A stretch of DNA of 55,316 bases from a virus. The notes under the pieces are model-generated. The model worked only from the letters and a program-made list of their open reading frames with translations. It made no database searches and was not told the origin of the DNA. This document shows positions 1-55,316 of the stretch, piece after piece. A program made the position numbers and the translations under genes. The stretch lies in IMG/VR virus record IMGVR_UViG_3300037485_000169, positions 1-55,316 of that record; one strand, given 5' to 3'. Numbering within the stretch: the stretch's first letter is position 1; each line of letters begins with the position of its first letter.

Positions 1-146
1 ATCATAAGCACAGAGAACTCAGCAGGCATACGTTCGGCGTAGGTAACGGCACGGTCCATGTTACCGTCAGTGATCCGTGCAGCAAGCGACCCAGACAGAG
101 CGTATAGAGTAGCCGGATCAGTCGGCGCGTCAGCAGATGACGGGTT
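1..146. repeat. Terminal repeat, left copy
   Basis: Bases 1-146 are identical to 55171-55316 except for G at 127 against A at 55297. The repeat lies inside the AAA+ ATPase gene, which is intact when the ends are joined. This fits an assembly overlap of a circularly permuted or circular molecule better than a discrete physical end. Confidence 0.95.
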
Positions 147-908
147 CATAAGCACAGCATCAGGGTTAGGCAGCTTGCGCCATATCCGCATAAAGCCAAC
201 AAACTCAGCCGCTGCCCCCTCACCAACAGCACCCTTGAAGCACTCATACTCAGCCTCGAACGGCACAGCACCAAGCACTGCGGAGACACCTTCGACCCAG
301 CTACGTGGTGTTGGGTTCTGGTCACGTTGAGCATCGAAGTCATGCAACAGACCGGGACGGAAGCGTATGAAGCTAACCACCTCTGGCTTGACGTTGTTGT
401 CCAGCATCCACTTGGTCGAGTCGTTGAGGTCGGTCTCAAAATCCAACGTGGTCTCACGGTTAGCCAGATGGCTGAGGATACGCACTGCACCAGCACGGTC
501 AGACTGCCTGTTACCAGTGGAGACAACCTGCCAGCCATCAGCAAGACGGATGCCATGCAACTCACGGGCCTGACAGATATTGGCCAGCACCTTCTGAAGT
601 TCAGGTCCAGCCTGATTGCGATCATCGAACAACAAGATACCACCACGTTCTGTGCCCGGCTTGCCTTGGTAGGGGAACCAGTCAGGCAGCTTGTAGCTGA
701 AAGACGCATTGGTAGTGGCCATGTCAGGCACACCGAAATCCTCAACCAGAGCGGTCGGCATATGGCGGACAATGACAGGGACATCCAACTCATTACCCAC
801 TTCATGGACGATGGTTGTCTTACCACCGCCGGGAGGGCCGACGATGCAGACAGTGCGTTGAATGTTGAACAGTGCCTTGAGCGTTCCCTTTAGAAGTTCT
901 GCACGCAT
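1..908 (-). CDS. MoxR-like AAA+ ATPase (5' part; continues across the circular junction)
   Basis: This gene starts at ATG 908 with an upstream GGAGAA and stays open to base 1. It continues at 55170 and stops at 55083, giving about 331 residues. Visible motifs are Walker A GPPGGGKTT (residues 24-32), a Walker B-like GGILLFDD followed by RNQAGPELQ, a sensor-1 region VVSTGN and the segment LANRETTLDFE. This arrangement is that of MoxR-family AAA+ ATPases, which remodel partner proteins together with VWA-domain proteins. Walker B reads DD where MoxR proteins usually have DE. The partner VWA gene lies three genes downstream at 52884-54017. The family assignment is confident; the target in the phage cycle is unknown. 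Confidence 0.85.
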   Translation of the reverse strand, partial: MRAELLKGTLKALFNIQRTVCIVGPPGGGKTTIVHEVGNELDVPVIVRHMPTALVEDFGVPDMATTNASFSYKLPDWFPYQGKPGTERGGILLFDDRNQAGPELQKVLANICQARELHGIRLADGWQVVSTGNRQSDRAGAVRILSHLANRETTLDFETDLNDSTKWMLDNNVKPEVVSFIRFRPGLLHDFDAQRDQNPTPRSWVEGVSAVLGAVPFEAEYECFKGAVGEGAAAEFVGFMRIWRKLPNPDAVLMNPSSADAPTDPATLYALSGSLAARITDGNMDRAVTYAERMPAEFSVLM

Positions 909-42989: not shown

Positions 42990-43004
42990 GTTGCCCCTGC
43001 GTCT

Positions 43005-43026
43005 GTGGGGGGATCGCTCCCCCCAC
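43005..43026. other. Perfect 8-bp GC hairpin between HTH and primase genes
   Basis: GTGGGGGG-ATCGCT-CCCCCCAC occupies most of the 41-nt gap upstream of the primase ribosome-binding site. No T-run follows on the minus strand. It may modulate primase translation or mark an mRNA processing site. Confidence 0.7.
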
Positions 43027-43030
43027 TATC

Positions 43031-43312
43031 TTAACCTTGATCGAGTATCTGTTGGAGGCGTTCCTTCCTCTGCTTCTGATCTGCGGCGATCACCTCCGGC
43101 ATGGGCCATGCGTGTTCTGTCATAACCCCAAGCAACCTCTTTAGCATAACCCTGACGGCCTCGTCATTGGATTTACGGATCGGTTTACCGCGTAACCAAC
43201 CATAGTACGTCGCACGGGTTACACCAAAGAGATCAGACATGTCCTGAATTGTTAGGAGCATGTGCTTCCGCAGTGCCTCCACCTTGATGAAGTCAATTGC
43301 GGTCTTAGTCAT
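43031..43312 (-). CDS. Helix-turn-helix DNA-binding protein (93 aa)
   Basis: The frame extends further, but ATG 43312 overlaps the preceding stop as ATGACTAA with GGAGGT 10 nt upstream (MTKTAIDFIKVEALRK). Residues about 22-45 (IQDMSDLFGVTRATYYGWLR) form an XRE-type helix-turn-helix. The C-terminal helix is Lys/Arg/Glu-rich. It is the only obvious sequence-specific regulator in the phage and a candidate binder of the GTGTATAGT sites; that link is speculation. Confidence 0.75.
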   Translation of the reverse strand: MTKTAIDFIKVEALRKHMLLTIQDMSDLFGVTRATYYGWLRGKPIRKSNDEAVRVMLKRLLGVMTEHAWPMPEVIAADQKQRKERLQQILDQG

Positions 43313-44306
43313 CGCTGTCCATACCTCCAACGAGTGCGGCGATCTCGTCAGCCAGAGACATGGCATTGCTGTCCGCAGCGACTGCTACAGGAGCAGCCTT
43401 CGCTTTTGGCGCAGCCTTGGGAGCCGGGGCGGGAGCCGGAGCTTCCTCTTCCACAGCTTTTGCTGCACCGAAACCACGCTTGGGAGCAGCCGCTTCAGGC
43501 GCAGGGGCAACTGGCTCTTCCACGACTTCAACCGGAGCGGGTTTCGGTGCAACAGGCGCAGGTCGGGCGACCTGAACCGGAACTTCAACAGGGCGGCTAT
43601 TGGTTTTCTCACCAGTGATCTCAAGGACCTGATCGCTACCGAACAGACCGTCGACAGCACCCTGAGTTTCAGCTTCAAGGAACCCACCAAAGCCAAACTT
43701 CAGCTTGGGGAATGAGGCATCAGTGTCGAACGACAGCACAGTCTTGACCACCTCGACAGGGATACCACGAACGGTCAGTTCCTTCTGGTACTGGTTGAGA
43801 CCCTTGAGTGCAGCGGGGGTAACCTGAAGCAGGTACACCGGACCCGTGGGGTCTTCTGCTGCCACGATGGCGAGGCGCTTCTGATCTGCGCAAGCCTTGA
43901 TCTGCTGGCCGTTGGGACTGATCTTGGAACCCCATGCGTTCATGGGGCATGACGCACACAGATCGTTCTCAGGGTTCTGGACAGAGGCGTCAGGGCCGAT
44001 ACCATCCAGCGAGAAGCAGTCAGGGCCAGACGGTTCATCATTCGGGTCCCACTGCTTGGCGTAGTAGGTCTTGGACAGGCGCGGGTTAGCGCCGACGATA
44101 ACAACATTCAGCTTGGTCTGATCCAGCACAGTCTCGGTCTTGCCTTCGACGATGCGGAAGCGCGAACCCTTGAGGCTGATGCGGGGGTAGCTCTCACCAG
44201 AGGCGAGGCCAGCGGCAAGTGACGCAGCCAGAGCCGACTGCTGCCCGATGCGGGTAGCAAGGTGAGCGGGGACTTGGATGTTGGTAGGGATAAGTGACGT
44301 GCTCAT
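43305..44306 (-). CDS. Candidate single-stranded DNA-binding protein (333 aa)
   Basis: ATG 44306 follows CAGGAG. A beta-rich core holds a Cys cluster (CFSLDG..., NDLCASCPMNAWG, CADQKR) that could bind zinc. A flexible Ala/Pro/Val linker (about 240-310) leads to an acidic tip ending GGMDSDD. A beta core, flexible linker and acidic tail form the classical layout of replication SSBs, and the gene lies among replication genes. I do not recognise a named family. Confidence 0.6.
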   Translation of the reverse strand: MSTSLIPTNIQVPAHLATRIGQQSALAASLAAGLASGESYPRISLKGSRFRIVEGKTETVLDQTKLNVVIVGANPRLSKTYYAKQWDPNDEPSGPDCFSLDGIGPDASVQNPENDLCASCPMNAWGSKISPNGQQIKACADQKRLAIVAAEDPTGPVYLLQVTPAALKGLNQYQKELTVRGIPVEVVKTVLSFDTDASFPKLKFGFGGFLEAETQGAVDGLFGSDQVLEITGEKTNSRPVEVPVQVARPAPVAPKPAPVEVVEEPVAPAPEAAAPKRGFGAAKAVEEEAPAPAPAPKAAPKAKAAPVAVAADSNAMSLADEIAALVGGMDSDD

Positions 44307-44330
44307 AAATTCTCCTGTGTTGAGCGTGTT

Positions 44331-44672
44331 TTAGTAGTTGAGTTTGGCGTAGGTGGTGTTGTTGTTAAAGCTACCCAAATTCATTTCATACTGGTGGCCC
44401 ACACCCAATGTGGTACGAGCCTGTTCTGCGACGATATGTTCTGCGATCTCCGTATGGTCTTTGCAATAGGTAAGAACTGGCATCTTCATCGTCTGGTTGA
44501 GGAGCGCCCGATCAAACGTCCGGATAACATAGCCGTTGCCGATGCGATAAACCATGATGCTAGGGCTTGACTCACCCAAAGCCGAGATCGCACCTCGGGT
44601 TTCCTCATATGTGTCCGGTGGGTACACCGGCCTTTCAATACCCAGCCACCTTCGTAGCAGTTTCTTAACCAT
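44331..44672 (-). CDS. Hypothetical protein (113 aa)
   Basis: ATG 44672 has GGAGG upstream and lies one base after the preceding stop. A basic N-terminus (MVKKLLRRWLGIERPVYPPD) precedes an alpha/beta body with one Cys and an Asn/Thr-rich end (SFNNNTTYAKLNY). Small proteins of this type occur next to SSB-like genes in related phages. Function unknown. Confidence 0.6.
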   Translation of the reverse strand: MVKKLLRRWLGIERPVYPPDTYEETRGAISALGESSPSIMVYRIGNGYVIRTFDRALLNQTMKMPVLTYCKDHTEIAEHIVAEQARTTLGVGHQYEMNLGSFNNNTTYAKLNY

Positions 44673-45077
44673 TTAATCCTCCACTTTTGCTGTTGGTTTG
44701 CGGACGCTGACCTCGATCTTGGTGCCGTAGTTGACACCCGGGGGGACAGCCTTGTTCTGTTCGATGTAGCCACGCACTGCGGTCTTGTTCACCGCCTTGT
44801 TCAGCATGTCGTAGGCACCGGTCTCTTTGATGAAGTTCAGTGTCGCATCCCAGTTCTCGACATTGGCATAGTCCTTGGTGGTCAGGAACGCCGTGCCATG
44901 CTTGGTCTTGAACGAGGTGACACCCAACGTGTCTGCCTGTCCTTTGATCCACGCTTCGATCTTGTCCATGCTGGCTTCGATCTGGGATACTTCGTCTTTG
45001 ATCTGGGCTTCGATCTCCGCTTTCTTCAGCCGGAGTTTCATATAGGCCGCGACGGCCTGATCTACCGTGATACTCAT
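44673..45077 (-). CDS. Coiled-coil hypothetical protein (134 aa), possible Gam-like
   Basis: The start overlaps the helicase stop as ATGA. An N-terminal coiled coil (AYMKLRLKKAEIEAQIKDEV, to about residue 45) is followed by a helical body and a basic tail. The layout is reminiscent of nuclease-inhibiting or DNA-end-binding phage proteins such as Gam, but no diagnostic motif proves it. Neighbours are helicase and SSB-like genes. Confidence 0.55.
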   Translation of the reverse strand: MSITVDQAVAAYMKLRLKKAEIEAQIKDEVSQIEASMDKIEAWIKGQADTLGVTSFKTKHGTAFLTTKDYANVENWDATLNFIKETGAYDMLNKAVNKTAVRGYIEQNKAVPPGVNYGTKIEVSVRKPTAKVED

Positions 45078-46627
45078 CGTCTTGTTTCCTCTTGGATTAG
45101 GTCGAGCAGCAGACCTTGTAGCTTTTGTTTATTCCTCAGCCGCTCATACGCTCTATGCTCAAGATCGGTCGCCTCGATATGGATCACATTCGAGGTCTTG
45201 TTCTTACCGATCCGTTCGATACGCCCGTTCGCTTGGACGTATGTCTCGTTGCTGTTGACAGGTCCGTACCAGATGATGGTCGACGCAGTCGTCAGCGTAA
45301 GCCCGTGTGCCATGGTGCCGGGGTGGGCGATCAGGACATGGGGGTCTCTACTATCTTGGAAGTCTTTGAATATGACATCGCGCTTGGATGATGAGACCTG
45401 CCCGTTCACAACGCCTACCGACCAGTGCTTGGACAGTTCCTTCTCCAGCATATGAAGTGTGCCAGTAAGGGGCACAAATACGATGACCTTCTCACCGGCT
45501 TCCTCGATAATCTCCTTGACCACCTTGACCCGTGGGCTGGCATCGATCTCGATGTTCTGGCCATCATCCCCATAGGCCACGCCACAGGCGATCTGGATCA
45601 GCTTCTGGACCTTGACCGCCTCGTTGACCGCGCTGATCGTACCGTCACTACCCACTTCGGCTATGAAGTCCTTGAGCATAGCCTTGTAATGCTTCTGCTG
45701 TTCGGCGGTCAGCGCAACCTGACGTGTCTGGATAATGGTCTCAGGTAGGTCGAAGCACTCGTCTCTGGTGAACCTGACCGCTGGTTGCAGGATGTCCTTC
45801 ACAATGTCGGTGGACTCAGGACGCGGCACATATTTCCACTGGCCGATCTTCATCATCACTGTCTCACGGAACGAGGTGAATGTGGACTTGCAGTTGGGAC
45901 TGTCTACCAGCTTGGCCAATGCCCATGCGTCGGTTGGATCATTAGGGGTAGGCGTACCGGTCATCAACCACAGACGTGCCTGTGTATTGTTCAGCATCCA
46001 CTTGCGGAAGAACTTGAACCGCTGCGTACTGGGATTGCGCAGCACCGCTGCCTCATCGACGATGATCAGGTCGAACATACCCTCCGCTTCCTCAGCGATG
46101 ATCGAGAAGCCGTCGTGATTGACGATGTAGAAGTCGACATCCATCTTGAGCAGCTTGCGCCTGCGCTCTGCCGTGCCATGCAGCACAGTGAACTTGCGGT
46201 GCGGGAAGCCCATGAATATCCCATCACCCCAGACACGTTCCAGTGTGGAGAGCGGAGACAGGATCAGGACCTTCTTGATCTGCTTGGTTTCCAGCAGGTA
46301 GTCCGCTGCCCACAGGGCAGACTGGGTCTTACCAGTGCCGATGTCATTGAGCACCAGCCCCTTGTTGTTGAGCGTAAGGAACGCAGCCGTCTCCTTCTGG
46401 TGGTCGAACGGAGTGAACCGACCCGGCCAGTCATAGTAATGGAGGATAGGTGACGGCGCTTTGATACCCATGTTGTTGAGGACACGCACTTCATCGAGCT
46501 TGTGCGGTGCGACTACGAGGTCCATACCACGCACAGAGATATGCTTGGCAGTTGGTATCGTGTCGAGGATACGGTTGGGGTTGTTCAGCTTCAGCGCAAG
46601 CGCCTTGGCTTTCTCAATTACTAACAC
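45074..46627 (-). CDS. SNF2-family helicase/translocase (517 aa)
   Basis: The start is GTG 46627, overlapping the nuclease gene by 14 nt. Motif I is DIGTGKT (95-101), motif Ia LILSPLSTLE, motif II DEAA (191-194) and motif III LWLMTGTP. The C-terminal RecA domain includes VFVPLTG and motif VI QANGRIERIGKNK. These are the features of SNF2 double-stranded DNA translocases. With the adjacent VRR-NUC nuclease it probably acts in replication fork processing or recombination. Both domains are intact. Confidence 0.88.
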   Translation of the reverse strand: MLVIEKAKALALKLNNPNRILDTIPTAKHISVRGMDLVVAPHKLDEVRVLNNMGIKAPSPILHYYDWPGRFTPFDHQKETAAFLTLNNKGLVLNDIGTGKTQSALWAADYLLETKQIKKVLILSPLSTLERVWGDGIFMGFPHRKFTVLHGTAERRRKLLKMDVDFYIVNHDGFSIIAEEAEGMFDLIIVDEAAVLRNPSTQRFKFFRKWMLNNTQARLWLMTGTPTPNDPTDAWALAKLVDSPNCKSTFTSFRETVMMKIGQWKYVPRPESTDIVKDILQPAVRFTRDECFDLPETIIQTRQVALTAEQQKHYKAMLKDFIAEVGSDGTISAVNEAVKVQKLIQIACGVAYGDDGQNIEIDASPRVKVVKEIIEEAGEKVIVFVPLTGTLHMLEKELSKHWSVGVVNGQVSSSKRDVIFKDFQDSRDPHVLIAHPGTMAHGLTLTTASTIIWYGPVNSNETYVQANGRIERIGKNKTSNVIHIEATDLEHRAYERLRNKQKLQGLLLDLIQEETRR

Positions 46628-46916
46628 AGATAAACGCCTCTACTTGGGTGATGGTGTCGTCGTCGTACACAAGGAACCACATACCACCTGCCTCTTTGAT
46701 CTCGTGCCCTGTCTTCCATTGCAGGGCTGTCGGCTTCTTCGTCTTGTCTGCCTTCACCTCGATGCCCACGAACCGACCACGCACGATGGCGATAATGTCG
46801 GGCAGCCCGGACTTCCCAAACCCGTTGTTACCCGGGAAGAAATACCAAACCTTATGCTTGCGCAGCATCTCAGTGAGACGGCGTTTCACTCGTCCTTCGG
46901 GGGTCATCGCGGCCAT
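46614..46916 (-). CDS. VRR-NUC domain nuclease (100 aa)
   Basis: ATG 46916 follows AGGAGG at 5 nt. The core SGLPDIIAIVRGRFVGIEVK carries Asp 40, Glu 53 and Lys 55 of the PD-(D/E)XK fold, with Gln 66 further on. This is the stand-alone virus-type VRR-NUC, often a structure-specific endonuclease that works with an SNF2 helicase, exactly the neighbour here. Length is typical of the viral form. Confidence 0.88.
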   Translation of the reverse strand: MAAMTPEGRVKRRLTEMLRKHKVWYFFPGNNGFGKSGLPDIIAIVRGRFVGIEVKADKTKKPTALQWKTGHEIKEAGGMWFLVYDDDTITQVEAFICVSN

Positions 46917-46958
46917 ATGAACCTCCTACTATACCATACATGTGTGTCAAGTATGAAA

Positions 46959-47642
46959 TTAACGCCGCGCCCATTTACATGTGGATTGTGCAGGACACCA
47001 ACCGCATAGCCCACTCGGTCTGGCTGGCCAGTTGTTGAAGTGCAGTGCCTGTTCGATGCGGCTGGTAGCCGACAGGATACCGCCCCAGATACCAGTGATG
47101 TCGATGCGGGTGTAGGTCTCGTCGTCCTTCTTCATATCCTTGAGCCAGACCAGTACGGTCTTGACCCGCTGGACTTCAGGGAAATGCTTGAACACCTGCC
47201 CCGCAAAGATTTCCATCTGGAAGAAGTCTGGCTTTCGCTTGCCGGTTTTCCAGTCCATTACGACAGCATCACTACCCTTTATCACAAGCACGTCGAGCTT
47301 AGACCTCAGCCATGCGTCACTGTCCCACCAACCTGTCGGTAGGTGATTGTCGTTTAGCACTAGTTCTTTCTCGACATACAACTCACCGCCTTCAGCCAGC
47401 TTCTCAACAGACTTACACAGAGCTTCATACGCGGCGGCTTCCTGCGGTAGCTCTAGGTTTTCCTTGAGCCTGCGCTCCAACATCTCATGGATACGCTCAC
47501 CATATTTGCTGGCCTCGCCACCTTCATCCCTGATATCTTTCAGGATGCGTTGCCGGTAGTAACGCTGTGGGCAGTTCTCGAATAGCTTCAGCGCCGAGTA
47601 TGAGTGCGCTAACCGGATACCCTTGTCTTCAAAATCTGACAT
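46959..47642 (-). CDS. PD-(D/E)XK exonuclease, Cas4/RecB-like with Fe-S cluster
   Basis: Two ATGs are adjacent. ATG 47642 has GGAGG at 6 nt and gives 227 residues. The segment AHSYSALKLFENCPQRYYRQ is the usual opening of this family. The catalytic strand is VVMDWKTGK. Cys 24, 213, 216 and 222 form the four-Cys pattern of Cas4/AddB iron-sulphur nucleases. It probably makes 3' single-stranded ends for phage recombination or degrades DNA. No CRISPR array is present. Confidence 0.85.
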   Translation of the reverse strand: MSDFEDKGIRLAHSYSALKLFENCPQRYYRQRILKDIRDEGGEASKYGERIHEMLERRLKENLELPQEAAAYEALCKSVEKLAEGGELYVEKELVLNDNHLPTGWWDSDAWLRSKLDVLVIKGSDAVVMDWKTGKRKPDFFQMEIFAGQVFKHFPEVQRVKTVLVWLKDMKKDDETYTRIDITGIWGGILSATSRIEQALHFNNWPARPSGLCGWCPAQSTCKWARR

Positions 47643-47706
47643 CATGTTCCTCCCATTCGTAAATATCCCAGCCAAAGTTCTCTTGCAGGAAGCGGCGTAG
47701 GGTCAT
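47629..47706 (-). CDS. Possible 25-residue leader peptide
   Basis: ATG 47706 has GGGAGA upstream at about 9 nt. The frame encodes 25 residues (it opens MTLRRFLQENFGWDIYEWEE) and stops at 47629, overlapping the nuclease start by 14 nt in another frame. Good ribosome-binding site and coupling suggest translation; function, if any, may be to regulate the nuclease. Confidence 0.4.
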   Translation of the reverse strand: MTLRRFLQENFGWDIYEWEEHDVRF

Positions 47707-47727
47707 GTCAAAAATCTCCCGTTTTCT

Positions 47728-47982
47728 TTACGTGTCGCTGGAACGTGTAAAGGTTTTGCCGGTCTCCTCAATGAGTGCGCGGACTATCTCGACCGCCCTT
47801 GCTGACGTTATTGACTTCCATTCACACCATGCCCCGCAACCGCATTCGCTTTCCTCTCGCGCAAAGCAGTCGCATAGTCTTGCATCGGCTTCTAGAGCAT
47901 CAGCGCAAGCCTTAACGCCAGCGTTATATCCTGCTTGCCATTCATTCGCCGCGTCCCGATCAGCCTGTGTGATCTCGGTCAT
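47728..47982 (-). CDS. Small Cys-rich hypothetical protein (84 aa)
   Basis: ATG 47982 overlaps the previous stop as ATGA and follows AGGAGACAG. After an acidic helix (MTEITQADRDAANEWQAGYN) comes a Cys cluster (CDCFAREESECGCGAWCEW) with six Cys in a short stretch, which may bind metal. No family is recognised. It belongs to a run of small genes of uncertain use beside the polymerase. Confidence 0.6.
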   Translation of the reverse strand: MTEITQADRDAANEWQAGYNAGVKACADALEADARLCDCFAREESECGCGAWCEWKSITSARAVEIVRALIEETGKTFTRSSDT

Positions 47983-48479
47983 CGTTCTGTCTCCTGTAGT
48001 GCTTTGCGGATAAAATCATCAAGGCAACCTTCGCAGGTATCATACATCCACTCATCATGGATGCAGCGGTCATGCTTGCTGGAGGACAAATCCATGCGCC
48101 ACGACTTCCCAAGCGGTCGCGGATACGTTGATGCCTCTATCTGTTTCAAAGCCTCACGCAGCTTCACCTTGTCGGCTTGCAGGGCTTCGATGCGACCAGT
48201 GGCGTCGGCTTCTGCTTGTTTGAAGGCGATAACCCATCTTTCATTTGCGGCTCGCAGTTCTTCAATGGTGTTTACCTGCGCCCCGCGGTCGTTTAATGCC
48301 ATCTGTTCATTAAACTCTTGGCGTTCTTCAGCCACCTTCGCAACGCGCTCGAAACTTTCACTTAATGCAAGTTTGTGGAAATTGTCGGATGTCGGGTCAA
48401 TAGCCAGCTTACCTGCACCTATGTCGCCTTCCTCTTGCTTTGCCATGTTGATGCACCATTCCTTGCTGATTTCAGTCAT
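47979..48479 (-). CDS. Coiled-coil hypothetical protein (166 aa), paralogue A
   Basis: ATG 48479 follows AAGGGAGAAG. A long central helix contains NTIEELRAANERWVIAFKQA, repeated almost exactly in the protein at 48824-49102. The C-terminal part has four Cys/His-rich positions (KHDRCIHDEWMYDTCEGC). The pair of genes shares about 128 bp of related DNA. Function unknown. Confidence 0.62.
   Translation of the reverse strand: MTEISKEWCINMAKQEEGDIGAGKLAIDPTSDNFHKLALSESFERVAKVAEERQEFNEQMALNDRGAQVNTIEELRAANERWVIAFKQAEADATGRIEALQADKVKLREALKQIEASTYPRPLGKSWRMDLSSSKHDRCIHDEWMYDTCEGCLDDFIRKALQETER
48151..48278. repeat. 128-bp diverged direct repeat, copy A
   Basis: Counted by eye this differs at about 14 positions from 48933-49060. 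It lies in the coding sequence of the two paralogous coiled-coil proteins, in the same frame. It records a local duplication within the small-gene cluster. Confidence 0.8.
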
Positions 48480-48527
48480 CGCTCTTCTCCCTTATCTCCA
48501 GCCCACGGGCTTCCAGTGCGGTGCGGG

Positions 48528-48827
48528 TCACAGCGACCTCATGACAAGCGAAAGGTTGTCCAGTCCGTCCACGCGCGCCATTGGAACCTTGCTATCAAAA
48601 TAGTGCGTAGCGTAGTTGTTCGCGCCGACTATCTCGCCGTCGCAGTCAACCGTGACTGTGCAATATCCTGAATATCGACAGGCACCTTGCACCTTGTCAT
48701 AGTGCGAAACGATAACGTGCATATGCCCGTTACGAGCACCAAAGCCGCCCCGAATAGGGTAAACGTTTCCAACCATATCTGGGCCCGTTGCGGGAATGGG
48801 GATGTTCGTATCAATTTCGATTTTCAT
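48528..48827 (-). CDS. Small beta-rich hypothetical protein (99 aa)
   Basis: ATG 48827 overlaps the previous stop as ATGA, with GGAG 7 nt upstream. The product begins MKIEIDTNIPIPATGPDMVG and contains a repeated beta pattern with three Cys/His pairs (GHMHVIVSHY, CRYSGYCTVTVDCDG). It lies between the two paralogous coiled-coil genes. Function unknown. Confidence 0.62.
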   Translation of the reverse strand: MKIEIDTNIPIPATGPDMVGNVYPIRGGFGARNGHMHVIVSHYDKVQGACRYSGYCTVTVDCDGEIVGANNYATHYFDSKVPMARVDGLDNLSLVMRSL

Positions 48828-49102
48828 TTCGTTTCTCCCAAGGCTGCGCTGATTGCGTCATCTACAACAGATGCACAGCGGTCGTAGGTGTCTACCTGCC
48901 ACCAATCCCATGCGTCCTTAATCTCCTTCACCGCCTCACGCAGCTTCGCATTGTCGGCCAGCAGGGTTTCGATGCGACCGTTGGCGCGTTCTTCTGCTTG
49001 ATTGAAGGCGATAACCCATCTTTCATTCGCGGCTCGCAGTTCTTCAATGGTGTTTGCCTGTGCCTCGCAGTTGGGGCAATATTGGCTAAGGCTGTCAGTC
49101 AT
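48824..49102 (-). CDS. Coiled-coil hypothetical protein (92 aa), paralogue B
   Basis: ATG 49102 overlaps the preceding stop as ATGACTGA, giving MTDSLSQYCPNCEAQANTIE. After a CPNC knuckle it shares NTIEELRAANERWVIAFNQA with paralogue A. It ends with a short helical part (DRCASVVDDAISAALGETK) that parallels the end of A. It looks like a shortened duplicate of A. Confidence 0.62.
   Translation of the reverse strand: MTDSLSQYCPNCEAQANTIEELRAANERWVIAFNQAEERANGRIETLLADNAKLREAVKEIKDAWDWWQVDTYDRCASVVDDAISAALGETK
48933..49060. repeat. 128-bp diverged direct repeat, copy B
   Basis: This is the partner of 48151-48278, offset by 782 bp and in the same orientation. The best conserved part is the 69 bp at the end encoding NTIEELRAANERWVIAF. 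Confidence 0.8.
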
Positions 49103-49475
49103 CGCTGCGCTCCTTTTCGAATGCGTCAAGCATGTCATAAATATCAAGGATGGCCCTTTGGTATGCCTTACCCTCTCTGCCCATAAATTCCGGCGAGGGA
49201 TTGGCAGCGGCTTCGTTGCGTATCATAAGAACTCGGCTTTTGATTTCTTTTAGCATCCCGTCGATCATATCAACCGGCTCAACACCTTCCTCAACCACCT
49301 CGCGGCGCACACCATGCACAGCTTCGTAGGGGACGTAGTAGGTCGACCATGCCAGCCACGCCCAGTCGGCGTTCACTTTCTCACCGTCCTCATCGACGCT
49401 GGCCAGCATATCCTTGGCCCAGAACGGTGGGTAATCACCGTGATTACGGGGCATCCATTTTACATATTCGGTCAT
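49095..49475 (-). CDS. Hypothetical protein after the polymerase (126 aa)
   Basis: ATG 49475 overlaps the polymerase stop as TGATG. The product begins MTEYVKWMPRNHGDYPPFWA, has a Trp/Tyr-rich middle and a helical C-terminus (YQRAILDIYDMLDAFEKERS). No domain is recognised. Coupling to the polymerase gene suggests co-expression with the replisome. Confidence 0.6.
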   Translation of the reverse strand: MTEYVKWMPRNHGDYPPFWAKDMLASVDEDGEKVNADWAWLAWSTYYVPYEAVHGVRREVVEEGVEPVDMIDGMLKEIKSRVLMIRNEAAANPSPEFMGREGKAYQRAILDIYDMLDAFEKERSDD

Positions 49476-51358
49476 CAACAATCTCCATAGTTGTCTGCAC
49501 GTCCTGCTTCGCAGGCTACTGGTAAGTCAGGTGCCCACGCTGGTGGCATGGACATGATATTAATGATCTCGGTCTCAGCTTCGGTGGCCGTCTCGATTGG
49601 CACTACGCAGACATTCTCGTCATGCACTTGGAACGCGACGAAGTGCCCGGCCTGTCCGATCAGGGTCATCTGCCAGCGCACGATGATACCAGCCAAAGCC
49701 TGCACGATATTCTCAGTGACCTTGCCACCATAAATCTTGATCCACGGTAGGTCGTCGAGGTTGCCACCTGAGACCCTGTCCCTGATCGCCTTGCGGTAGG
49801 TCCGTGCATCATTGATATACTGGAACCCATCCTTGGTTTGGCGCAGTGCAGGGTAGGTAATGCGCAGCTTGTTCGGCAGCAGGATACCGCCGCTATCATA
49901 GGTGATAACTTCTTTGAGTGTGCCGCTGCGGTTGCCTGCCATGTCCTTGAGTATCTGGTTACAGGTCTGCCATAGCTGGACGATCTTCCAATATTTCTGG
50001 CGGTACAAGCGCACGATGCGCTCGGCTTCATGTTCCTCGATGATGATCTTACTAAGAGCCAGTGTCTTGCGGAACTTGTCAGCCCCCATGCCATAGCCGA
50101 GGCCAAGGATGCAGGTCTTACCTACGAACCGTTCGATTGCGTCAGCCTTGGTTACAGTCTTACCATACACGTCACTGGCAAACTCTGAATAGACATCGCG
50201 CCCCTCACGGAACGACTGCACCAGATCATCTTGTCCTGCCAGCCATGCCACTGTCCGCGCTTCGATCTGGCTGGAGTCACAGGCGATGATCTCATATCCC
50301 TCCGGTGCTCTGAGTGCTTGGCGGATGGTGGTGTTGCCCCGACTGGGCAGGTTCTGGAGGTTCACCTTGTCGCCACCTGAGAACCTACCTGTGTGTGCCC
50401 CATAATAGTTGAGCATGATAGGCAGTGGGCCACGGCCAGCGATGCCAATGAACGCTTCTGTCCGTGTCTCCTCGATGGTGGACTTGGTCCCTAGCCGTGC
50501 CTCAACCGCTGCCCGGACACGGTCGTCAGGGTGCTCAAGCAGGGCGAGAAATCCTTGGTCAGTCTTACTGAAAGCGAACGCTTCCTTACCAGTACGGGGA
50601 CTGGTCTTCGTCGGTGCAACGACACCCAACATATCCAGCAGCTTGGCAAACTGGGGGTTGCTCATAAGCAGGGTCTTCAGAGCGTTCGGGTCGAACCGCT
50701 CACCCATACCGACAACATCAGCCAGTTCCCTGAGCACCTCCTCCTTGCGCTGACGTACCTCACCGAGATGTTTCTCCAACAGGGGTACATCCAGTTCGAT
50801 CTTGGGTTCGATGTACATCCGTAGGGTCTGGTCAATCACCAACAACTCAGAGGGTGGCAGTTCTTTCTTGAGGTTGAGCCACAGTTGATAGGTAATCTCT
50901 ACGTCATTGACGCAGTAGGCAGCGTACCGCTCCAGTTCCTCCTTAGAGAAGTCAGCATAGCGTTTACCCAGTGCGTTGATAACCTCGTCGCCCTTCTCAC
51001 CCAGCTTATAGTACTGGGCCAGTGCCTTGAGGCTGCCGCCGACAGTGACGTTATGCAAAGGCCGTGCCATCGACATGGTATCCAGCCACAGCTTGGGTCT
51101 CACACCGTAGTGCCATGACAGGATAGCCCCATCGAAGGCAGTGTTGTGACAGAGGATCGCCGCCTTGCTGAAGTCGACAGCTTTGAGGAACGGCCCGATC
51201 AGGTTCTTGGGTATCCACTTGACCGGGCCGCTGTTCTTTTTGATCCCCATCATGATCGCTTCGAACTGGGGATCGCGGACGTACCGCTCGGTGGTTATCT
51301 TCGAGAGACTATACTCTCGTGAATAGTAAGTTTCAAAATCAATTGTATAGATATCCAC
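49475..51358 (-). CDS. DNA polymerase, family A, with Leu at the 762-equivalent position
   Basis: The start is GTG 51358 with AGGAG upstream. The N-terminal 3'-5' exonuclease has DFET (Asp 7, Glu 9), HNTAFD and NDVEITYQLW. The polymerase has motif A CDSSQIEAR (Asp 361), motif B RFVGKTCILGLGYG with Lys 414 and Leu 418 at the position of E. coli Pol I Phe 762, and motif C HDE (579-581). At 627 residues there is no 5' nuclease domain. Published virioplankton work links Leu at this site with slower, more accurate enzymes; effects here are inference. Confidence 0.93.
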   Translation of the reverse strand: MDIYTIDFETYYSREYSLSKITTERYVRDPQFEAIMMGIKKNSGPVKWIPKNLIGPFLKAVDFSKAAILCHNTAFDGAILSWHYGVRPKLWLDTMSMARPLHNVTVGGSLKALAQYYKLGEKGDEVINALGKRYADFSKEELERYAAYCVNDVEITYQLWLNLKKELPPSELLVIDQTLRMYIEPKIELDVPLLEKHLGEVRQRKEEVLRELADVVGMGERFDPNALKTLLMSNPQFAKLLDMLGVVAPTKTSPRTGKEAFAFSKTDQGFLALLEHPDDRVRAAVEARLGTKSTIEETRTEAFIGIAGRGPLPIMLNYYGAHTGRFSGGDKVNLQNLPSRGNTTIRQALRAPEGYEIIACDSSQIEARTVAWLAGQDDLVQSFREGRDVYSEFASDVYGKTVTKADAIERFVGKTCILGLGYGMGADKFRKTLALSKIIIEEHEAERIVRLYRQKYWKIVQLWQTCNQILKDMAGNRSGTLKEVITYDSGGILLPNKLRITYPALRQTKDGFQYINDARTYRKAIRDRVSGGNLDDLPWIKIYGGKVTENIVQALAGIIVRWQMTLIGQAGHFVAFQVHDENVCVVPIETATEAETEIINIMSMPPAWAPDLPVACEAGRADNYGDC

Positions 51359-51397
51359 CGGGGTACTCCTATGGTTTACGTCTGCGAGACTAGCTTA

Positions 51398-51604
51398 TTA
51401 TACAGCTCTGTCAAGCAGCCCATGATTTTCAGCGACGATCCGCAGGTGGTGGGGCGCACTGCCCCACAGACCGAAAGCCTTGTCATACTCACGGCATAGC
51501 ATCCTGAGTTCCTGCTCGTTGGTCCGTACCAATGCACGTATCCGGTCCTGTTCTGCGAGGGCTATGGTTGCACGATCCATGATCTCTCTCTGCTCACTGG
51601 TCAC
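51398..51604 (-). CDS. Small helical hypothetical protein (68 aa), GTG start
   Basis: GTG 51604 overlaps the previous stop as GTGA with GGAG upstream. The product begins MTSEQREIMDRATIALAEQD and is almost wholly helical and charged, with one Cys. It is encoded just before the polymerase. Its last codons contain TTGACA and TATAAT by chance with unsuitable spacing. Role unknown. Confidence 0.6.
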   Translation of the reverse strand: MTSEQREIMDRATIALAEQDRIRALVRTNEQELRMLCREYDKAFGLWGSAPHHLRIVAENHGLLDRAV

Positions 51605-52041
51605 TTCGCGTCTCCTCTCAGCCGGTCAGCCACCAGCTTGGCATAGCCAGCGATGTCATCCCATGAGTCGATGTAATTGGGATCGCCGTTCAAGATGCGC
51701 CCGATCTTGTGGAAGATCATATCGAGGGCTTCGACCTGATCGGAGTCAAATGCCTTACCTTTACTGACAGCAAACTCATACGCTGCCTTCTTCAACCCCT
51801 GCGTCACATGGGCATGGTCCTTGAATATACCGTAGCGAGAGCCACGCTCTTCGAGGATGCGGTCTATCGTGTTTACATCCTGCACTTCGACAGGCTCAAC
51901 ATCCTCAGACTTATCCTTGAGCCATTTATTCTCGACCTGAGTGACGTAGACCGGATGACACCCTACGCGATCTGCGATCTGCCACTTGTTGAGGTGGGGG
52001 AAGTCGCACATTGTGCGGATGATCATTTCTTTCTTAGTCAT
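51601..52041 (-). CDS. DUF6378-like protein with N-terminal HTH (146 aa)
   Basis: ATG 52041 has AGGAGG upstream. The N-terminal 45 residues (LNKWQIADRVGCHPVYVTQV) look like a helix-turn-helix. The rest matches a conserved phage domain marked by ILEERGSRYGIFKDHAHVTQ and the close IDSWDDIAGYAKLVADRL, which I recall as DUF6378. The known family is uncharacterised but regularly found near replication genes. Confidence 0.75.
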   Translation of the reverse strand: MTKKEMIIRTMCDFPHLNKWQIADRVGCHPVYVTQVENKWLKDKSEDVEPVEVQDVNTIDRILEERGSRYGIFKDHAHVTQGLKKAAYEFAVSKGKAFDSDQVEALDMIFHKIGRILNGDPNYIDSWDDIAGYAKLVADRLRGDAK

Positions 52042-52676
52042 TATAGTCCTCCTAACTTGCTTGCTGCCAGTACTGCGGTCAGCTTGGTTGTATCGATCTC
52101 GGGTGCTGCCCGATCTGATTTGGTACGCTCGACGATCTGCTTGTGTCTCTCCTTGGCATACTCAGGGACCAGTTCCCACAGCGGGGGCCATGCCTTCAGG
52201 GCCGGAGCCAGTGTCGAGTAGGACGCAAGCACTTTGGATACGCCTTCGACAAACGTCTGTGACTGACCACGCATGGCTGCGCACCGCTGCTTCCACTCGT
52301 CTACCTCGGCCTTTAACTCTGCCCACACAGGGTCATCGTTGAGCCAGACGTTATCGCCATACATACCCCTCTCGGCAGGTGCATCGCTGGGTAGGTTCAT
52401 AGGCCACCGCTTGGCCGAGGATAAATTGAAGTTTAAACTTACTGGCGATCCGGATATCCGGTTCACTGTGAGTTTGTCCTTCGTATAGAACATCTCGCTG
52501 GGCAGTTGCTCCATGATGGGGATATGCTTACCCAAAATCTTCTCATAGATATACTCACCCCACTGTTCGCCAGTGGGAGCACTCGCCTCTGCCGCTTTAA
52601 TCCGGTCAAAGAACTTACTCTTGGCGACGTCAAGGATATCCTCGGCGAGTTGTTTAGTTATGCGTACTACGGCCAT
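52041..52676 (-). CDS. Hypothetical protein (211 aa), possibly Nmad5-like
   Basis: The frame is open to 52718, but ATG 52676 lies 7 nt after GGAG. The product (MAVVRITKQLAEDILDVAKS...) has helical ends and a beta middle. The segment FVEGVSKVLASYSTLAPALK followed by AWPPLWELVPE resembles the end of Nmad5-type putative nucleotide-modification proteins. The likeness is by eye and uncertain. Confidence 0.55.
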   Translation of the reverse strand: MAVVRITKQLAEDILDVAKSKFFDRIKAAEASAPTGEQWGEYIYEKILGKHIPIMEQLPSEMFYTKDKLTVNRISGSPVSLNFNLSSAKRWPMNLPSDAPAERGMYGDNVWLNDDPVWAELKAEVDEWKQRCAAMRGQSQTFVEGVSKVLASYSTLAPALKAWPPLWELVPEYAKERHKQIVERTKSDRAAPEIDTTKLTAVLAASKLGGL

Positions 52677-52890
52677 CTTCATTCTCCATATCATCATACA
52701 AATTGGACAAGCTCTCATATGTCTGAGCTAGGAACTCATGCTTGGGGACACCGCTCTGTTCGGCACAGTCAGCCATAAGATACAGCAACGCGGTCACCAC
52801 CGTGCCCATCTCATAGCCAGAACAGATCGTACCAAGCTCGATAACGAGGGCACTAAGGCCCTCGGGTTCGTCAAAATCTTCGATCACCAT
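52654..52890 (-). CDS. Small acidic hypothetical protein (78 aa)
   Basis: ATG 52890 overlaps the previous stop (ATGGTGA) and its end overlaps the next start. The product is acidic, with a hydrophobic central helix (YEMGTVVTALLYLMADCAEQ) and an Asp/Glu-rich end (DDMENEDGR). No family is recognised. It directly follows the VWA gene in the same transcript. Confidence 0.58.
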   Translation of the reverse strand: MVIEDFDEPEGLSALVIELGTICSGYEMGTVVTALLYLMADCAEQSGVPKHEFLAQTYESLSNLYDDMENEDGRSTHN

Positions 52891-54017
52891 TTTATTACTT
52901 CTCCAAAGGGGGCTTTCTCAGCACCATCGCTGACCCAAAGCACAGGGTAGTCAGGCTCCGGACCAAAGTCAGAGCAATACAGATCGGTCAGAAACACACA
53001 GGCAACAGGCTCGATGCCATGCTCCTCAGCGTAGCGAAACACAGGGCTGAACGCAGTGCCACCGCCACCATGCGGCTTGATATCCAGCATGTCACCGGGT
53101 TCATACACCTCTGCATGGGACACCTCGCTGTCGAAGTACACGACATGCAGTTTGCGGGGACGGAAGTGCTCGAAGACCTTGGTAATCTCAGCCGCTGCCT
53201 GATTGATCTGTTGTGCTGTGATCGAACCGGAACAGTCGACAGCCCATAGCATCTCACCCATGGTCTCACCGGTCACGCTGGGCAGATAGATACCCTGCGA
53301 TATGAACCGCCGGTTGGGCCGTGCGAAGGTCCGGCTATCGTTCTTGCACTTCTGGAGGAACCGCCACATGACATCGACCCAGTTGACCTTGGGCTGAAGC
53401 ACCTCGTCGACAAGTCTCTGCATGTTGGCCGATAGTTTGCCCATCATCTTGGCAGCCTGTGCTGCCTGAGCAACCTGCACTTTCATCTCGGCAGCGGCCT
53501 GTGCTTGCTCGGCAGGACTACCACCGCCATCGAGGCAGTCATCATAGGCATCGCCGCCATTGTCATTGTCCTCATCAGGCAGCAGGTTGAAGATGCCATC
53601 GCTTGTGCCATTACCTGCATTATACAGGCTGGGATCGAGGCAACCGCCGGGTATAAACTTGCCGATACCCTCCTGTGTCAGGTGGTGGTTGATCACATAG
53701 TCACACGCCTTGTTCCACTTGGCAGGGTCACGCTCGGCACGGCGATAGTTATGCTCCAGCATGGGGTGGAAACACTCATGCGCCACAAGAAACTTAAGCT
53801 GCTCGTCACACAGCGTGTCGATAAAGTGTGGGTTGAACTTGACGTACTTACCGTTGGTTGCCGCAGTGGGGACAGACTCGTCCAGCGTGAACGGCATGTT
53901 GAGAGCGATGGTCCCGACGAAGGGATGCTCTAAGATGAGGGATGTCTTGGCCTTGGCCAGACGGCGGGTGAGGGCGTTGAGATCGCCCGTAAACTCACGC
54001 TTGATTGCTACCTGCAT
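52884..54017 (-). CDS. VWA-domain protein with metallopeptidase-like N-terminus (DUF2201-type)
   Basis: The 377-residue protein begins MQVAIKREFTGDLNALTRRL. Residues 80-84 are HECFH, followed by PMLEH and WNKACDYVINHHL, the pattern of putative zinc peptidase DUF2201_N domains. The C-terminal VWA domain has a MIDAS DCSGS, a Thr-bearing GGGGTAFSPVF and an FLTDLYC segment. Such proteins act with MoxR ATPases, here encoded at 908-1/55316-55083. A Gly/Asp-rich linker with coiled coil separates the domains. Confidence 0.85.
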   Translation of the reverse strand: MQVAIKREFTGDLNALTRRLAKAKTSLILEHPFVGTIALNMPFTLDESVPTAATNGKYVKFNPHFIDTLCDEQLKFLVAHECFHPMLEHNYRRAERDPAKWNKACDYVINHHLTQEGIGKFIPGGCLDPSLYNAGNGTSDGIFNLLPDEDNDNGGDAYDDCLDGGGSPAEQAQAAAEMKVQVAQAAQAAKMMGKLSANMQRLVDEVLQPKVNWVDVMWRFLQKCKNDSRTFARPNRRFISQGIYLPSVTGETMGEMLWAVDCSGSITAQQINQAAAEITKVFEHFRPRKLHVVYFDSEVSHAEVYEPGDMLDIKPHGGGGTAFSPVFRYAEEHGIEPVACVFLTDLYCSDFGPEPDYPVLWVSDGAEKAPFGEVIKW

Positions 54018-54868
54018 TAGTTTGCTCCCATGAATACGGACATTGCGTCCATGATTTTGCGTGCTTCTGCGGCTGTATCCTGCCGGACATCGAGGTCATT
54101 ACGCAGGGTATCAGGGTGGAAATCCAACAGCTTGCGCTCGACCTGTTGCCGCATGTTCTCAAGGTTCGGGTCTTCAGCTATGTTCAGACGTGTCAGTAGG
54201 TCACATGTCTCCCTTGCGTTGTCGATCATACTGTCACGGAAGATATTCTTGGGGTCGGATAGCTTCTCGGTGATATGTTCCACATGCTTGTACAGCCGAT
54301 GCCAACAGTCATTCATCGCCTCTTGCTGGATCGAAGTCATCCGGCTTTCGAGGTCCTCTTGGATACGGGTAAGCTCATCGCTGGACAGTGCCACACGGAA
54401 GTCATTGCTAGGCACAGGGAAAATACCCATGTCCATGTTGAACTTACCCATGATGCTGTCCTTGGATGGATAGTCCTTCTCGTCGTACAGATCACCCAGC
54501 CACCGCTTGGCCTCGGCTACCAGATACTCATAGTTGTCGAGGAATGTGGTAACTAGCGTCTGCCACTCGGACTTTTCCTTGCGGAAATCCTGCATGAACT
54601 GGAGGTAGTTGGCACTAGGTAACATGCGTGTACCATCGATGCCCCATGGCAGGGTGTTCTTAGCAAATTTCTCACGGATAACACCAGTCTTCTGATGCAC
54701 GTTGGCAAGCAGATCGTTGAGCGGCAGGAGAGACTTGTTGTACCGGCCAGCACTGGTGCTGGCACGGTTGATATCGGCGACATCCTTGGTCGCTTTCTTG
54801 TCGAGTTTACGTGCCGTCCACTGTGATATGGACAGGCTAACGAGAAGGGCACGGTCATTGAGTTTCAT
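54017..54868 (-). CDS. Helical protein of the MoxR-VWA trio (283 aa)
   Basis: A GTG at 54883 is in frame, but GGAG lies 9 nt before ATG 54868 (MKLNDRALLVSLSISQWTAR), which I prefer. The protein is mostly helical and charged, with a Trp-containing N-terminus and a C-terminal helical pair. Placement between MoxR and VWA genes is like families such as DUF3150, which I cannot confirm. It may be the adaptor linking ATPase and VWA. Confidence 0.62.
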   Translation of the reverse strand: MKLNDRALLVSLSISQWTARKLDKKATKDVADINRASTSAGRYNKSLLPLNDLLANVHQKTGVIREKFAKNTLPWGIDGTRMLPSANYLQFMQDFRKEKSEWQTLVTTFLDNYEYLVAEAKRWLGDLYDEKDYPSKDSIMGKFNMDMGIFPVPSNDFRVALSSDELTRIQEDLESRMTSIQQEAMNDCWHRLYKHVEHITEKLSDPKNIFRDSMIDNARETCDLLTRLNIAEDPNLENMRQQVERKLLDFHPDTLRNDLDVRQDTAAEARKIMDAMSVFMGAN

Positions 54869-54882
54869 AGTAATATACTCCA

Positions 54883-55083
54883 CTATTTGCCAAGCAGACG
54901 CTGCTTGGTTTTGAAAACGAGGTAATCTTCAGGGTAATCCGCCGTCAGTTCTACGAGTCGCTTGACTGCTACCTGCCTAACCTTGGTACTGGCATCCAGC
55001 ATGTTAGAGAGATGTCCCAACCTGATGTGAAGATGTGGCTGACGCTCCCTAAGAAACACCAGCCACTGCCTGACCCCATCCAT
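54883..55083 (-). CDS. Small hypothetical protein (66 aa)
   Basis: ATG 55083 overlaps the stop of the MoxR-like ATPase as TGATG, so the earlier in-frame codons are discounted. The product begins MDGVRQWLVFLRERQPHLHI and is helical and basic, ending KTKQRLLGK. It is the second gene of the MoxR module in transcription order. No family is recognised. Confidence 0.55.
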   Translation of the reverse strand: MDGVRQWLVFLRERQPHLHIRLGHLSNMLDASTKVRQVAVKRLVELTADYPEDYLVFKTKQRLLGK

Positions 55084-55316
55084 CAGAACAGCACGTCCTG
55101 ATGAGCAAGGCTCCACTTGATGAACGCTTGTGTCGCAGACAGGTCAGGGTCACGACGAACCGCTTGACTGATCATAAGCACAGAGAACTCAGCAGGCATA
55201 CGTTCGGCGTAGGTAACGGCACGGTCCATGTTACCGTCAGTGATCCGTGCAGCAAGCGACCCAGACAGAGCGTATAGAGTAGCCGGATCAGTCGGCACGT
55301 CAGCAGATGACGGGTT
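55083..55316 (-). CDS. MoxR-like AAA+ ATPase (3' part)
   Basis: This is the C-terminal end of the ATPase that starts at 908. It encodes a helical lid segment (RITDGNMDRAVTYAERMPAE) and ends HQDVLF at 55083. Bases 55171-55316 duplicate 1-146; the A at 55297 changes one Ala codon (GCG) to Val (GTG) relative to the left copy. The complete gene is 996 nt when joined. Confidence 0.85.
   Translation of the reverse strand, partial: NPSSADVPTDPATLYALSGSLAARITDGNMDRAVTYAERMPAEFSVLMISQAVRRDPDLSATQAFIKWSLAHQDVLF
55171..55316. repeat. Terminal repeat, right copy
   Basis: This is the partner of bases 1-146. The single difference (A at 55297 for G at 127) suggests two variants in the sampled population or an uncorrected assembly end. 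Confidence 0.95.

Follow-up and report, generated by a model that had tools for sequence, protein, structure and literature searches.

A MoxR-like ATPase, a DUF3150-like protein and a zincin-VWA protein encoded as a fixed-order gene set in a marine-type phage and its relatives

The two ends of the viral record IMGVR_UViG_3300037485_000169 (55,316 bp, analysed over its full length and hereafter called the window) carry a group of minus-strand genes, which the initial annotation read as one coupled set of four: a MoxR-like ATPase gene running across the junction of the ends, a 66-residue gene, a 283-residue helical gene and a gene for a VWA protein with a zincin-like HECFH motif. The locus raises the question of which of these genes belong together, and of what use such a set would be to a phage.

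Locus layout and conservation among viral relatives

A 146-bp stretch is common to both window ends, with one mismatch, and the MoxR-like gene was a single unbroken ORF in three relatives (L003, L004, L011), with 94% amino-acid identity over 331 codons to the first of these; the junction-crossing gene is therefore real, and its product matched PHROG_1297 (E = 1.5e-57). The one base differing between the two 146-bp copies (1-146 and 55171-55316) results in Ala or Val in the MoxR-like protein, and reflects either strain variation or an assembly error. The end of the 283-aa gene overlapped the start of the zincin-VWA gene (TAATG), and the 283-aa ORF would reach 288 aa with an upstream GTG as start codon.

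Table 1. Features of the locus in window coordinates.
Feature	Position	Strand	Remark
MoxR-like AAA+ ATPase gene, 331 aa	908→1, 55316→55083	minus	crosses junction
MoxR-like AAA+ ATPase, N-terminal part	1..908	minus	
Walker A GPPGGGKT	839-816	minus	
Walker B D95-D96	626-621	minus	
MoxR-like AAA+ ATPase, C-terminal part	55083..55316	minus	146 bp repeat the other window end
66-aa ORF	54883..55083	minus	own ATG overlaps MoxR stop (TGATGG)
DUF3150-like protein, 283 aa	54017..54868	minus	candidate adaptor, third component
Metallopeptidase (DUF2201_N)-VWA-like (DUF2201) protein, 377 aa	52884..54017	minus	
HECFH zincin motif, residues 80-84	53766..53780	minus	
D106 in ACDYVIN	53700..53702	minus	candidate third zinc ligand
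MIDAS motif DCSGS, residues 261-265	53223..53237	minus	
T321, MIDAS residue	53055-53057	minus	
D345, MIDAS residue	52983-52985	minus	
Nmad5 (nucleotide modification associated) protein	52041-52718	minus	just downstream of the trio
Type II hammerhead ribozyme (RF02276)	2037-2101	minus	intergenic
2446-aa ORF	32803-40143	plus	

The window belongs to a marine-type phage, whose nearest cultured phages, based on the portal protein, were Rhizobium phage RHph_TM3_14A (35%) and the HMO-2011 group (25-27%). The plus strand carries its structural genes (terminase, portal, head, tail, internal virion protein) between about 5 and 40 kb. The replication genes (primase/helicase, helicase, exonuclease, DNA polymerase) occupy 40-51 kb of the minus strand, in the same orientation as the three large genes at the junction, which are most likely expressed together with the replication genes. 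Wherever a DNA polymerase ORF was identified (119 ORFs), it shared its strand with the VWA gene. Scans of positions 40000-55316 revealed no clear excess over shuffled sequences for promoters (10 vs 9.5) or terminators (17 vs 12.4). The 2446-aa ORF matched only uncharacterised giant phage proteins (PHROG_11358, PHROG_21376), with the matches falling on its C-terminal part.

An Rfam search identified no RNA parts of the trio, its single match being an unrelated hammerhead ribozyme (50 bits) about 1.1 kb upstream of the MoxR-like gene on the same strand. Such a ribozyme was found upstream of MoxR in 5 of the 11 related loci searched (L029, L030, L035, L043, L044), with identical matches in L029 and L030 and a distance of just ~160 bp in L043.

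Co-conservation was counted over IMG/VR loci that extend upstream of the VWA gene by more than 4 kb, all metagenomic and mostly from one clade. The MoxR-like gene was present in 89/89 of these loci and the DUF3150-like gene, as the 283-aa gene is called below, in 87/89, so that all three large genes co-occurred in 87/89; the order MoxR-DUF3150-VWA was kept in 116/116. The three large genes are thus confirmed as a real, fixed-order unit. The 66-aa ORF, proposed as a further member, had a homologue in only 7/89 loci; it is lineage-specific and falls outside the conserved set. Other neighbours were retained to varying degrees, including a 75-aa upstream gene (71/89), the Nmad5-like gene (73/83), a DUF6378-like gene (62/83), the DNA polymerase gene (77/83) and a 78-aa downstream gene (12/83).

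All three large genes were under purifying selection (dN/dS about 0.04-0.14; dN 0.03-0.11 and dS 0.48-0.92 among close relatives). Pairwise distances, compared as r without significance values, were more strongly correlated between MoxR and VWA (0.845) than between either of them and the DNA polymerase (0.645 and 0.738, respectively), whereas those of the DUF3150-like protein followed the polymerase (0.846) more than MoxR (0.734) or VWA (0.773). On this basis MoxR and VWA appear tightly paired, whereas the DUF3150-like gene follows the genome, and its product may not bind the pair tightly.

Domains and conserved residues of the three proteins

The 377-aa protein was assigned to a putative metallopeptidase family (PF13203; E = 5e-44, 151.3 bits for a cut-off of 23.2) and to a VWA-like family (PF09967; E = 3e-25, 89.1 bits for a cut-off of 26.4), as expected from the initial annotation, and matched PHROG_1314 (E = 5e-101); Foldseek matches were VWA folds and selecase. 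It possessed the HExxH motif and all residues of a full MIDAS (DxSxS, T, D). Across 137 zincin-VWA proteins, D261, S263, S265 and T321 were present in all, and D345 in 136, the remaining one having a gap at that site. PHROG_1314 and many RefSeq/GenBank phage records label this family as HNH endonuclease; given the PF13203 and PF09967 matches this label was rejected, and it looks like a propagated misannotation.

H80, E81, H84, D106 and N110 were kept in 113/120 proteins from trios; in proteins from loci with only the MoxR/zincin-VWA pair, the H, E and H residues were kept in 16/17 (E81 being replaced in 1/17) and D106 in 17/17. The seven exceptions among trios comprised every copy in two gammaproteobacterial MAGs, in which H80, E81, H84, N102, D106 and N110 were lost together and the MIDAS was retained. 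As D106 disappeared jointly with HExxH, it is proposed as the third zinc ligand. The loss of the zinc site as a unit, with the MIDAS kept, shows that the machine can persist without a protease, which would thus be an add-on to it. The intact forms are putative proteases.

The ATPase, placed in the AAA_5 / helix-2-insert group, passed the Pfam cut-offs only marginally (AAA_5, 22.1 bits for a cut-off of 22; AAA, 23.2 for 21.2), and its best PDB sequence matches were the AAA modules and rings of midasin, which is likewise an AAA machine operating with a MIDAS domain. The Walker A lysine and the sensor-1 asparagine were present in all aligned relatives with letters at those sites, so ATPase as well as MIDAS residues are retained. 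The Walker B motif lacked the catalytic glutamate of DE, reading DD as had been noted before, and the protein is therefore named MoxR-like rather than a typical MoxR; its partnership with a VWA gene held at every viral locus with sufficient upstream sequence (89/89). Among trios, 148 sequences had DD and 3 had DE, and the 7 MAG copies had EE, while pair-only systems had DE in 11/11. DD as a strict marker of trios was rejected, as trios with DE and EE exist, and since most DD sequences come from one clade it is regarded as a lineage trait and not a rule.

The 283-aa protein scored 15.6 bits against Pfam DUF3150 (PF11348), below the gathering cut-off of 24.9, and is for this reason named DUF3150-like. 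A single profile nevertheless joined it with two proteins above the DUF3150 cut-off (L195, 38.4 bits; L216, 35.3 bits). Its single-chain AF2 model (pLDDT 89, pTM 0.80) contained the helices foreseen for this gene, but also several strands, so that a purely helical protein was not borne out. The model had no fold match in the PDB (best E = 0.11) and matched phage proteins, one of them annotated as DUF3150 (TM 0.86, E = 1.5e-19).

Pairs and trios in phages, plasmids and chromosomes

The core pair is already known as N4 gp24/gp25, which are core genes of N4-like phages (PMC4193335, PMC7650795). At locus L021, profile matches (E = 2e-112 and 5e-103) identified ATPase and zincin-VWA genes that are orthologous to N4 gp24/gp25 and lie close together. 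Like the genes of the window, these Schitoviridae core genes encode an adjacent MoxR-like ATPase and zincin-VWA protein near replication genes, with the same HExxH, ACDxxIN and MIDAS residues; unlike them, they are accompanied by no DUF3150-like gene and have a DE Walker B. The earliest phage description found is that of a MoxR plus metallopeptidase-vWA pair of the same domain architecture in group 2.2 jumbo phages (Iyer et al. 2021; PMC7824862), in whose Callisto and Sharanji loci no third gene was detected.

By tblastn, the zincin-VWA protein was found in 689 phage records. A MoxR gene was located near its gene in all phages examined (N4, SBP1, EcP1, RHEph16, phiFa, phage G, Callisto, Sharanji and CarlMeissner), and a DUF3150-like gene near the pair in none of these nine or in RHph_TM3_14A. 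Neither HMM nor hhalign comparisons recovered hidden DUF3150 homologues at the N4-like, jumbo, phiFa, phage G and RHph_TM3_14A loci, or at Vequintavirus loci, including the neighbour annotated there as an anti-sigma factor. The pair was absent from the 50 kb of HMO-2011 examined. Near-full-length DUF2201 genes checked in chromosomes (L218-L224, L226) each had a MoxR gene directly beside them and no DUF3150-like gene within 1.5 kb. The MoxR/zincin-VWA pair is thus ancient and widespread without the third gene, and the coupling first proposed holds for the three large genes of the viral relatives but not as an obligatory trio.

Full trios were present in Planktothrix/Synechococcus phages of 65,014 bp. 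Three such genomes (OL906435.1, OQ594354.1, PP438419.1), with equal match scores to the DUF3150-like protein and different cyanobacterial hosts in their names, are probably one phage under three names. Full trios were also found on Burkholderiales plasmids of Simplicispira, Cupriavidus and Burkholderia cenocepacia; no terminase was detected in the three complete plasmid records with a single family profile (PHROG_2), and two of the three possessed VirB4. Two gammaproteobacterial MAG chromosomes (OY282353.1 and OY282433.1) carried two and five trio copies, all with the dead zinc site and a Walker B reading EE; a HerA/TrwB-like ATPase gene was observed near one of these copies (L183). Among 299 sampled genomes of the phylum of these MAGs, the DUF3150-like gene was confined to the query genome, and the metallopeptidase family was above the cut-off in 11. 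A quick tree, in which forks were left open and some branches were long, placed the three plasmid VWA proteins with the MAG copies, outside the phage clade; trees made by this quick method, with several open forks, did not support the trio as ancestral to all phage pairs. New points are the DUF3150-like gene as a regular third partner of the pair, the occurrence of the trio on plasmids without a detected terminase, and the distribution of zinc-site loss and of Walker B types described above.

DUF3150-family genes also occurred in another setting. In the Planctomycetes loci checked (L188, L193, L199), a DUF3150-like gene adjoined a classic AAA gene (PF00004), and on a Candidatus Manganitrophus plasmid (L216) it was found with AAA, DUF1257 and DUF2997 genes, with no VWA gene in either case. 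These loci resemble the window in placing a DUF3150-family protein beside an AAA ATPase, but differ in the AAA family and in lacking a VWA or zincin gene, and are possibly a separate AAA-partner gene set. No DUF3150 genes were annotated within the 49 kb examined of the IncC plasmid pAR060302.

Possible functions of the gene set

The MoxR/VWA activases NorQ-NorD and CbbQ-CbbO likewise combine a MoxR-class AAA+ ring with a VWA partner, and serve here as a model of how the window proteins may work; NorD and CbbO are not known to have a zincin domain. In NorQD structures, rotation of the VWA partner, which is inserted into the AAA ring, stretches a linker that leads to the partner's N-terminal domain (PMC13036017). 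For the window, we lean towards a three-part, ATP-driven protein-remodelling machine with a zinc protease, which would act inside the infected cell during the replication phase and not as a virion assembly factor. As NorQ does with NorD, a putative MoxR hexamer would dock on the zincin-VWA protein at its C-terminal VWA-like domain. ATP-driven rotation or pulling would displace the VWA/MIDAS side against the N-terminal zincin, and a captured target could thereby be remodelled and, in most members, cut. The DUF3150-like protein may be a lineage-specific adaptor, whose task would be either to present the target or to provide a helical arm of the kind that NorD-type partners have in cis. Such a target would be one that phages and plasmids can share, either a host complex or a complex of the element's own replication or nucleotide metabolism, although the plasmid trio may be doing a different job from that of the phage trio. 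No biochemistry of any family member and no tested function of the pair were found in the open-access literature.

Iyer et al. (2021) suggested that the jumbo phage pair serves virion assembly, with processing, by analogy with the archaeal virus ATV (PMC7824862), and in such a role the pair would fold or assemble portal, tail or fibre proteins while the zincin trims structural proteins. ATV does encode a MoxR ATPase, p618, which interacts with the VWA protein p892 and is one of the major virion components (PMC4124505), and the presence of the pair among the core genes of all N4-like phages (PMC4193335, PMC7650795) would suit such a role. The comparison with ATV, also drawn in the initial annotation, is no more than an analogy: the ATV system has no peptidase domain (PMC7824862). 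Moreover, N4 gp24/gp25 are middle and not late genes (PMC4193335), and their homologues do not appear in the portion covered of the table of RPP1/RLP1 virion proteins in that study. A role in virion assembly alone is doubtful, because the trio also sits on plasmids without a detected terminase and, in the window, lies with the DNA polymerase gene while the structural genes occupy the other strand; with the pair residing in bacterial chromosomes as well, we consider this explanation unlikely.

Still less likely is that the trio matures or reactivates a nucleotide- or DNA-metabolism enzyme of the phage or host, with the zincin as a metal-handling or quality-control domain. The best understood MoxR/VWA pairs work in this manner, NorQD loading iron into nitric oxide reductase and CbbQO reactivating rubisco (PMC13036017, PMC4660213), and suitable neighbours exist: a dCTP deaminase gene beside the pair in N4 and RHEph16, a thymidylate synthase gene near it in RHEph16, Sharanji and EcP1, and the Nmad5-like and DUF6378-like genes in the window clade. 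No single client gene, however, was common to phages, plasmids and chromosomes, and the conservation of HExxH fits catalysis better than mere metal transfer. The pair could also be the whole machine, with the DUF3150-like gene as an independent neighbour kept through shared ancestry and synteny. The many loci that, by profile comparison, have the pair and no such gene, its polymerase-like distances, and its relatives beside a different AAA gene all point in that direction. We nevertheless regard this as improbable, to about the same degree as virion assembly, since the three-gene order recurs in the window clade, the Planktothrix/Synechococcus phages, the Burkholderiales plasmids and the gammaproteobacterial MAGs, and since the Planctomycete and Manganitrophus DUF3150-like genes again lie beside an AAA gene, as expected of a partner. 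The MoxR-vWA ternary conflict systems (VMAP, iSTAND, FtsH; PMC7159879) also combine MoxR, vWA and a third protein, but the third protein of the window is not VMAP, STAND or FtsH based on Pfam and PADLOC, and no effector domains were found on its vWA protein. Membership in a defence system was rejected, as PADLOC gave just short P-loop matches.

The favoured remodelling machine can be extended, more tentatively, to a tool shared by lytic phages and conjugative plasmids, in which a protease-armed MoxR machine with a dedicated DUF3150-like adaptor would dismantle a host complex, possibly one of defence or DNA maintenance, and the cellular pseudoprotease copies would be derived and non-proteolytic; we hold this extension to be unlikely as it stands. 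The pair belongs to the core gene set of N4-like phages and occurs in hundreds of sequenced phages, often under the misnomer HNH endonuclease. The trio on plasmids without a detected terminase weakens virion assembly, the sole published proposal found, and points to a non-virion target. Natural variants, with pair or trio, live or dead protease, and DE, DD or EE in Walker B, mean that the roles of the parts are separable by experiment.
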